Shown here in pieces: positions 215 to 2,282 of a stretch of DNA of 31,390 nt. The stretch covers positions 1 through 31,390 of the forward strand of contig CALEDJ010000055.1 of assembly GCA_937951485.1 (NCBI GenBank), in the 5' to 3' direction. The position numbers and the translations under genes were made by a program. This DNA is from an uncultured bacterium. Its GTDB lineage: Bacteria > Hydrogenedentota > Hydrogenedentia > Hydrogenedentales > CAILVY01. Within the stretch, counting starts at the first letter, position 1, and the number at the start of each line of letters is the position of its first letter. The notes beneath the pieces were generated by a model. The model searched no databases and was not told the origin of the DNA. It saw nothing but the letters and a program-made list of their open reading frames with translations.

Positions 215-231
215 TCGCACATTGTGCTCCG

Positions 232-278
232 CCCGCACGCGGCGTGAAAGGCGCATCTTTTCCCCGCGTGCGGGTTTT
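232..278 (+). terminator. Rho-independent terminator after the first gene
   Basis: A perfect 11-bp GC-rich stem (232-242 pairing with 264-274) encloses a 21-nt loop and is followed directly by TTTT. It lies 18 nt after the stop codon of the partial gene and before the promoter of the next gene. Confidence 0.8.
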
Positions 279-316: not shown

Positions 317-345
317 TTGACCTTGCCGGACGCACCTTGTATCCT
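317..345 (+). promoter_or_regulatory. Sigma-70-type promoter for the sigma-54 activator gene
   Basis: TTGACC at 317-322 and TATCCT at 340-345 are separated by exactly 17 bp. Transcription would begin near 352. This makes the upstream in-frame TTG at 345 unusable and supports the ATG at 423 (or 408) as the start of the following gene. Confidence 0.55.
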
Positions 346-422: not shown

Positions 423-1430
423 ATGGCAAGCGACCTGAAACATCCGGAAGCCTTTGCCGACATCATCACGCGGGATCCCGCCATGCGCGTCTTGTTTCAC
501 TATGTCGAGAGCATCGCGCAATCCGCCCGTACTGTGCTGATTACCGGGGAGACCGGCGTCGGCAAGGAACTTTTCGCCCGCGCACTTCACCAGGCCGGCG
601 GTGGCGGCGCCTTTGTCGCGGTGAATGTGGCCGGGGTGGACGACCATTTCTTTGCCGACACGCTCTTCGGCCATGCTCCCGGGGCTTTCACCGATGCCCA
701 CGAGTTTCGCCCCGGTCTTATTGCCGAGGCGGGAGAGGGTACGCTGTTTCTGGATGAGATCGGCGATCTCAGTCTCCAATCGCAACTTAAACTGCTCCGC
801 CTGGTGGAAACCTATGAATATTTCCCGCTCGGCGCGGACAAGCCCCGCCGGACTGGCGCCAGAATCATCGTTGCGACCAATCGCGATCGAAAACAACTCC
901 TGCAGCAGGGCCATTTCCGTTCCGATCTCTACTACCGCCTGCAGGCCCATCATATCCATGTACCCCCTCTGCGCGAACACCTCGATGACCTGCCGCTTCT
1001 CGTCCCCCATTTTCTGCACAAAGCCGCGCTGCGCATGGGCAAGAAGACACCCACCGCCCCACCGGAACTCCCCGTCCTCCTCGCCACCTATGATTTCCCT
1101 GGAAATGTGCGTGAACTGGAAGCCATGATCGCCGACGCCGTCGCACATCACCATGCGCACATACTATCGCTGGAACGGTTTCGGGATTACATGACCCATC
1201 CCGAACACCGAATGCCTCCCGACGCCGCAGCCACCTATGCGCCGTTCGCCGGGCTGCACCCCTTGCCCTCTCTCAAGGAAGTCCAGCGCATGCTCATCGC
1301 CGAAGCCCTGCGCCGTTCCCAAGGCAACCAAAGCATCGCCGCGCGCCTGATTGGCATCACACAGTCGGGTATCAGCAAAGCCCTGAAACGCCTGGAATCT
1401 CGCGCACCTGATCCGCGCCCTCGAAAATGA
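423..1430 (+). CDS. Sigma-54-dependent transcriptional activator without sensory domain (PspF-like architecture)
   Basis: An AAA+ enhancer-binding protein of 335 residues that would remodel sigma-54 RNA polymerase. Visible motifs, numbered from the ATG at 423: Walker A GETGVGKE at 42-49, the sigma-54 contact loop as GAFTDA at 87-92, Walker B FLDEIGDL around 109-116, sensor I ATNRD at 151-155, arginine-finger candidates R166 and R172 in FRSDLYYRL, and a C-terminal Fis-like helix-turn-helix (about 290-325, ending TQSGISKALKRL). The AAA+ domain starts almost at the N-terminus, so there is no receiver, GAF, PAS or FHA domain. The usual GAFTGA has Asp at its second glycine. A promoter at 317-345 overlaps the earlier possible start codons. 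A perfect sigma-54 promoter lies 240 bp downstream, before the next gene, which is its obvious target. Family assignment is firm; physiological role unknown. Confidence 0.93.
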   Translation: MASDLKHPEAFADIITRDPAMRVLFHYVESIAQSARTVLITGETGVGKELFARALHQAGGGGAFVAVNVAGVDDHFFADTLFGHAPGAFTDAHEFRPGLIAEAGEGTLFLDEIGDLSLQSQLKLLRLVETYEYFPLGADKPRRTGARIIVATNRDRKQLLQQGHFRSDLYYRLQAHHIHVPPLREHLDDLPLLVPHFLHKAALRMGKKTPTAPPELPVLLATYDFPGNVRELEAMIADAVAHHHAHILSLERFRDYMTHPEHRMPPDAAATYAPFAGLHPLPSLKEVQRMLIAEALRRSQGNQSIAARLIGITQSGISKALKRLESRAPDPRPRK

Positions 1431-1492
1431 GCGACCTGGGACCCGTTGGCGGAGCGGCATGAAGCATTGGGGAATCAATCCCTTATTCCAAA

Positions 1493-1586
1493 TGTCATAT
1501 CCAGAAATTTACGTATATGCCGAACAAGCCAATTCGTCTTATGAATTTTCTGAAAAATGTCATCAGTTTTTCATGAATAGTGTCAT
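1493..1586 (+). promoter_or_regulatory. Candidate upstream activator sites (TGTCAT repeats)
   Basis: Three direct copies of TGTCAT (1493-1498, 1558-1563, 1581-1586) lie 90-180 bp upstream of the sigma-54 promoter. The middle copy sits inside an inverted repeat, TGAAAAA (1551-1557) and TTTTTCA (1567-1573). The region is strikingly AT-rich for this genome. The distance fits enhancer sites bound by the preceding activator; that it binds here is inference. Confidence 0.4.
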
Positions 1587-1673
1587 AGGTGTTTTTTGTG
1601 CATCTTGAAAAGGCTGGGATTATAAACCCATCGTTTCCAAACAGATAGCAGCACGGCGCCATTCTTTATGAGT

Positions 1674-1688
1674 TGGCACATAACTTGC
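1674..1688 (+). promoter_or_regulatory. Sigma-54 (-24/-12) promoter
   Basis: TGGCAC at 1674-1679, five bases, then TTGC at 1685-1688: a full match to the sigma-54 consensus TGGCAC-N5-TTGC. Transcription should begin about 12 nt downstream, near 1700, leaving a leader of about 160 nt before the ATG at 1860. Confidence 0.85.
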
Positions 1689-1859: not shown

Positions 1860-2282
1860 ATGGTCGCAAAACACATTTTTCTGGTGGATGCCCATGCTGC
1901 GTCGCGCGCCAGTATCGCGGAGGCGCTGTCTCGCGCCGGCTACAAGGTGACCACCTCCGATGATGGCGAACATGCCCTGATGAGCATCATCATGGCGCCG
2001 AAGAACCGGGGAAAAAGCATAGACCTGCTGATCTGCGATTGCGAAATGCCCGGCCTGACCGGGCTGGAACTCATTGATCAGTTGCGGATGCGCGGCATTG
2101 TACCGCCCACCATCATCATGCCTGATTCCGAGGACGAGGGGGTCAATCCCGATCTGCTCCGCGAGGGGTGCGCAGTGTATTTCAAGAAAAGCAACAGCAT
2201 CCACCAGATGCTGGAACAAATCGGCCAACTTCTGGACCAGCAACCCGCCGATGCCTTCGCCGGAGAAGCGGCCGCGACGTGA
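1860..2282 (+). CDS. Stand-alone CheY-like receiver-domain protein
   Basis: A single receiver domain of 140 residues with no output domain. The start at 1860 is set by a strong AAGGAGG-type ribosome site ending about 7 nt upstream. Expected phosphoacceptor is D60 in LLICDCEMPG; the acidic pocket keeps D10 (only one of the usual pair), and the conserved lysine appears in YFKKS near residue 107. The beta-4 segment reads TIIMPDSED, so the usual Thr/Ser switch residue and the small residue after it are replaced by Asp-Ser. That suggests altered phosphorylation-driven switching. No histidine kinase is adjacent. The gene is preceded by a perfect sigma-54 promoter and the sigma-54 activator gene, so expression is probably sigma-54 controlled. 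Residues 126-140 form a short Ala-rich tail. Confidence 0.88.
   Translation: MVAKHIFLVDAHAASRASIAEALSRAGYKVTTSDDGEHALMSIIMAPKNRGKSIDLLICDCEMPGLTGLELIDQLRMRGIVPPTIIMPDSEDEGVNPDLLREGCAVYFKKSNSIHQMLEQIGQLLDQQPADAFAGEAAAT

Follow-up and report, generated by a model that had tools for sequence, protein, structure and literature searches.

The window, i.e., the whole stretch of 31,390 nucleotides analysed here, carries near its start a gene that probably encodes a functional sigma-54 activator with its origin in a two-component pair, a protein which has lost its receiver domain (REC), is expressed by itself, and acts on the sigma-54 promoter located behind it at position 1674 (Table 1). The loss of REC and, as far as can be seen, of the kinase inside a subfamily of two-component activators, with the promoter arrangement kept, makes this a natural case that raises the question of how such an activator stays controlled. 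In addition, a survey of 68 genomes revealed that GAFTDA, the sigma-54 contact loop of this protein, is a regular variant among domain-regulated activators, one that gives no ground for inferring deregulation.

According to the Pfam annotation, the activator is composed of Sigma54_activat (residues 14-178, 8e-52), AAA_lid_14 (184-265), and HTH_8 (284-324); its open reading frame (423-1430, +) has an in-frame ATG at 408 as an alternative start. No N-terminal domain and no REC were found in this Pfam scan, approximately 13 residues preceding the AAA+ domain, which confirms the description in the earlier note of an activator devoid of a regulatory domain; its report of a contact loop reading GAFTDA and not GAFTGA was likewise borne out. 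All the ATPase motifs are kept, namely Walker A (residues 42-49), Walker B (108-114), sensor I (150-155), and sensor II (227-232), and the arginine-finger region (165-173) is present, so that the protein possesses the AAA+ domain with catalytic motifs expected of a sigma-54 enhancer-binding protein; few of the residues near-invariant in the subfamily are altered. In the PspF equivalog test (NCBIfam), it scored 181 bits, well below the cut-off of 443.55-443.6. Three substitutions in the helix-turn-helix (HTH) hit residues that are otherwise near-invariant in the subfamily, which suggests an altered DNA-site preference, such that the DNA sites of the activator may differ from those of its relatives. 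The genome contains one copy of rpoN (G000:C45) and 16 strongly scoring sigma-54 activators, whose other readable loops (n = 14) comprise 13 GAFTGA and one GAYTGA.

Table 1. Features in and around the activator gene (positions are those of the window).
Feature	Position	Strand	Details
Probable terminator for the gene upstream	231..275	+	Strong hairpin, then TTTT; -31.5 kcal/mol, z -4.3
Candidate sigma-70 promoter for the activator	317..345	+	TTGACC-17-TATCCT; weak, about one expected by chance in the stretch
Sigma-54 activator gene	423..1430	+	335 aa; AAA+ domain, lid, Fis-type HTH; without receiver domain
GAFTDA sigma-54 contact loop	681..698	+	Residues 87-92; Asp91, codon GAT
Fis-type HTH of the activator	1326..1394	+	Residues 302-324; I310 for L, I317 for L, A320 for R
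Imperfect 36-bp palindrome, candidate binding site	1605..1640		Between the activator gene and the promoter
Sigma-54 -24/-12 promoter TGGCACATAACTTGC	1674..1688	+	TGGCAC-N5-TTGC; predicted start near 1700
Stand-alone atypical receiver protein	1860..2282	+	140 aa; predicted to be expressed from the promoter at 1674

The search for relatives covered the 68 genomes of the order (the same 68 constitute the whole phylum set) and yielded 22 other members of the subfamily in 17 genomes, 45-58% identical to the activator; three further members belong to Marinomonas, bacterium UASB270, and Citrifermentans. These 25 relatives are REC-AAA+-Fis proteins of approximately 470 residues, with L033 cut by a contig edge, and the only REC-less protein among the 26 is that of the window, present in a single genome. 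In the phylogenetic tree, the activator nests inside the REC-containing subfamily; the node supports along its path are moderate (0.3-0.9), and consequently its exact sister is not settled. Since the activator is nested among REC-containing relatives and starts in the REC-AAA+ linker, the missing REC represents a loss. A remnant of REC 5′ of the ATG was ruled out, as only the linker KHPEAFADI matches the relatives, and the protein thus lacks the N-terminal REC of NtrC-type response regulators. In nine relatives, a gene encoding a HATPase_c kinase (Pfam) is situated directly upstream, typically with a 4-base stop/start overlap, and in three more the upstream gene is kinase-like by motif. No full-length paralogue of the subfamily was found in the same genome, where the next best match is 40% identical, and no relatives of the activator were found in viral contigs.

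Upstream, the probable terminator indicates that the activator gene forms a separate transcription unit. No histidine kinase gene adjoining the activator was seen in the available part of the contig, which begins just upstream (C55:1). Positions 1-213 of the window encode the C-terminal end of a gene interrupted by this contig start.

Downstream, the promoter at 1674 begins 244 bp past the activator stop codon (243 bp between the two), and all 10 core bases match the consensus. The earlier note had called it a perfect sigma-54 promoter 240 bp after the stop; the location and the core stand, but two flanking bases depart from the consensus, with an A instead of a G after TGGCAC and a G instead of an A or T after TTGC. 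At the genome level, TGGCAYN5TTGCW occurred 16 times compared to 4 times for the reversed control. When 24 loci were examined over the 450 bp 3′ of the activator stop for sites with an unchanged GG and GC and no more than one mismatch to TGGCAYN5TTGCW, one on the same strand 192-268 bp past the stop was identified in the window and in 8 of 23 relatives. With 14 sites in the 602 kb elsewhere in the same loci, these nine in 10.8 kb correspond to a 36-fold enrichment with a Poisson P of approximately 9e-12, a value that is indicative, given that coding sequence forms part of the background and that the relatives are non-independent. Taken together, the genome-wide excess over the reversed control and the position behind the gene kept in relatives argue that the site at 1674 is not due to chance. 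The conserved position also favours the proposal that the adjacent promoter is the probable target of the activator, and both rpoN and a nearby -24/-12 promoter are present. Among the relatives, the genes behind the site encode CheW and then a chemoreceptor in L070, CheW in L072, and small HATPase_c_2 proteins in L074, L078, and L079. Between the activator stop and the promoter, a convincing enhancer site was sought and none was identified. The motif TGTCAT (at 1493, 1558, and 1581) was rejected as an enhancer, since 777 of 1000 shuffles held some 6-mer three times; AAATGTCAT is present twice in the same interval, and the TGTCAT/AAATGTCAT repeat was not shared by the genome's other strict sigma-54 promoters.

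The gene behind the promoter encodes a small protein that retains the phospho-acceptor Asp and the Lys of receivers; its acidic pair reads Asp-Ala, and its switch position is occupied by neither Thr nor Ser. In Pfam, it shows a weak similarity to the N-terminal pseudo-receiver of KaiA. No orthologues were found across the 68 genomes of the order at 1e-20. A near-perfect GC-rich inverted repeat without a T-run was seen by eye around its stop codon (2265-2295). As this gene adjoins the activator and lies behind a sigma-54 promoter, the receiver could be imagined to have split off and to act in trans on the activator, a feedback resembling that of PspA on PspF. A comparable arrangement exists in L077 (2486-3736), where a sigma-54 site precedes genes for a stand-alone receiver and a sugar-transferase-like protein, all situated just upstream of a full-length subfamily activator. 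However, this activator retains its own REC, and other relatives carry CheW or HATPase proteins at the position behind the site. Moreover, the small receiver is 33% identical to that of L077 and 24-27% identical, over most of its length, to the subfamily's own receivers, which argues that it is not the lost domain. Because it is not derived from that domain and is atypical, with key receiver residues missing, such trans-action appears unlikely. A more elaborate version, in which kinase and receiver were dropped, the activator is restrained in trans by a detached pseudo-receiver expressed from the very promoter that the activator targets, and the Asp loop and altered HTH are compensating changes, is less likely still.

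It is similarly improbable that the gene is a decaying remnant whose product, after the loss of REC and kinase, no longer activates transcription. The loss of REC, the substitution of a near-invariant loop residue, the changes in the HTH, and the restriction to a single genome would fit such decay. Nevertheless, the frame is open with a coding-like composition, the ATPase motifs are complete, the branch length lies within the range of the relatives, and a good sigma-54 promoter is kept at the conserved position.

Regarding the contact loop, the residue at the position of Asp91 is Gly in 24 of the 25 relatives and Ser in one, the full-length member L059 (GAYTSA); all the other loops are GAFTGA or GAYTGA, save GAFSGA in the Marinomonas protein L052. 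None has Asp, and the residue is not conserved in close homologues. The earlier note had counted homologues with GAFTGA and no neighbouring sigma-54 promoter, or a genome lacking rpoN, against its reading: the homologues do carry GAFTGA or GAYTGA, but many keep the promoter and rpoN is present. In all 68 genomes of the order, the pattern FG[HY]..GAFT[GD]A retrieved 761 activators, of which 730 had GAFTGA and 31 (4%) GAFTDA. At least 165 residues precede Walker A in 28 of the 30 GAFTDA activators examined (of the 31), and the six long ones that were scanned all contained REC or PAS; the two without a long N-terminal region are the window protein and L101 (G019:C185). L101 is 54% identical to L014 (G000:C49:28143-28640), a REC-less protein with GAFTGA encoded in the same genome as the activator. 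L014 and L101 constitute a second lineage of REC-less activators.

Published activators carry the same residue. Asp at position 5 of GAFTGA is listed for FlgR of Campylobacter (PMC3162934), named as a two-component response regulator, so that GAFTDA falls among the variants found in validated activators. DVU2106 of Desulfovibrio vulgaris has GAFTDA, is single-component, and works with sigma-54, its gene being sigma-70-expressed (PMC4641369, PMC3897727); VfmH also has GAFTDA, with its sigma-54 contact unresolved (PMC10714721). In NorR, G266D escapes repression by the GAF domain, NorR without this domain is already fully active and constitutive, and G266 variants have lower ATPase activity (PMC2941729). 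Since deletion of the NorR GAF domain suffices, an Asp in a protein without a regulatory domain has no intramolecular restraint to relieve. On the strength of the survey, the published activators with Asp, and the NorR results, the Asp is a tolerated variant and no marker of deregulation; GAFTDA is a known natural variant and alone no sign of an unlocked protein. The Asp probably tunes the ATPase or the engagement of sigma-54. The idea put forward in the earlier note, that the Asp itself makes this a naturally unlocked counterpart of NorR G266D, can draw on the coincidence that the sole subfamily member with Asp is also the sole member without REC, but is very unlikely in view of the long N-terminal regions of other GAFTDA activators, the Asp of FlgR and DVU2106, the sufficiency of GAF deletion and lowered ATPase in NorR, and the GAFTGA kept by the REC-less paralogue L014.

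We favour a working REC-less activator of the promoter at 1674. Its ancestor would have been a histidine kinase/REC-AAA+-Fis pair from which REC was dropped, leaving a protein that begins in the REC-AAA+ linker. The gene would be transcribed alone, after the terminator and probably from a sigma-70 promoter, and its product may bind putative sites in the interval from the activator stop codon to the promoter at 1674, where it would remodel the sigma-54 RNA polymerase and drive the receiver-like gene. As no receiver restrains the protein, its activity would depend on how much of it is present, on enhancer occupancy, and perhaps on a partner, as the earlier note had also proposed and as we consider probable; the Asp would not be the cause of any deregulation. 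In some activators of this type, removal of REC might yield an inactive rather than a constitutive protein.

When compared to known systems, the activator resembles the NtrC-type regulators in its AAA+/Fis portion, which is 45-58% identical to theirs, in its nested position in their tree, and in the placement of the promoter; unlike them, it has no REC, no kinase seen adjoining it, and a loop in which Asp replaces Gly. It shares with PspF and HrpR/HrpS an organization limited to AAA+ and the Fis HTH, but is of separate origin, by loss of REC, and no pspA neighbour was found among the genes examined. By its published description (PMC4641369, PMC3897727), DVU2106 is alike in being single-component with GAFTDA, and its sigma-70 promoter and its activation of neighbouring sigma-54 promoters parallel those proposed here, whereas its targets are two divergent orp operons. 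NorR G266D carries the identical substitution at the corresponding loop position; in contrast, it is a laboratory mutant of a GAF-regulated activator, and its escape is from a domain absent in the window protein. Finally, FlgR is an accepted sigma-54 activator with a natural Asp at motif position 5 (PMC3162934), but as a two-component regulator it shows that this Asp is compatible with normal control.
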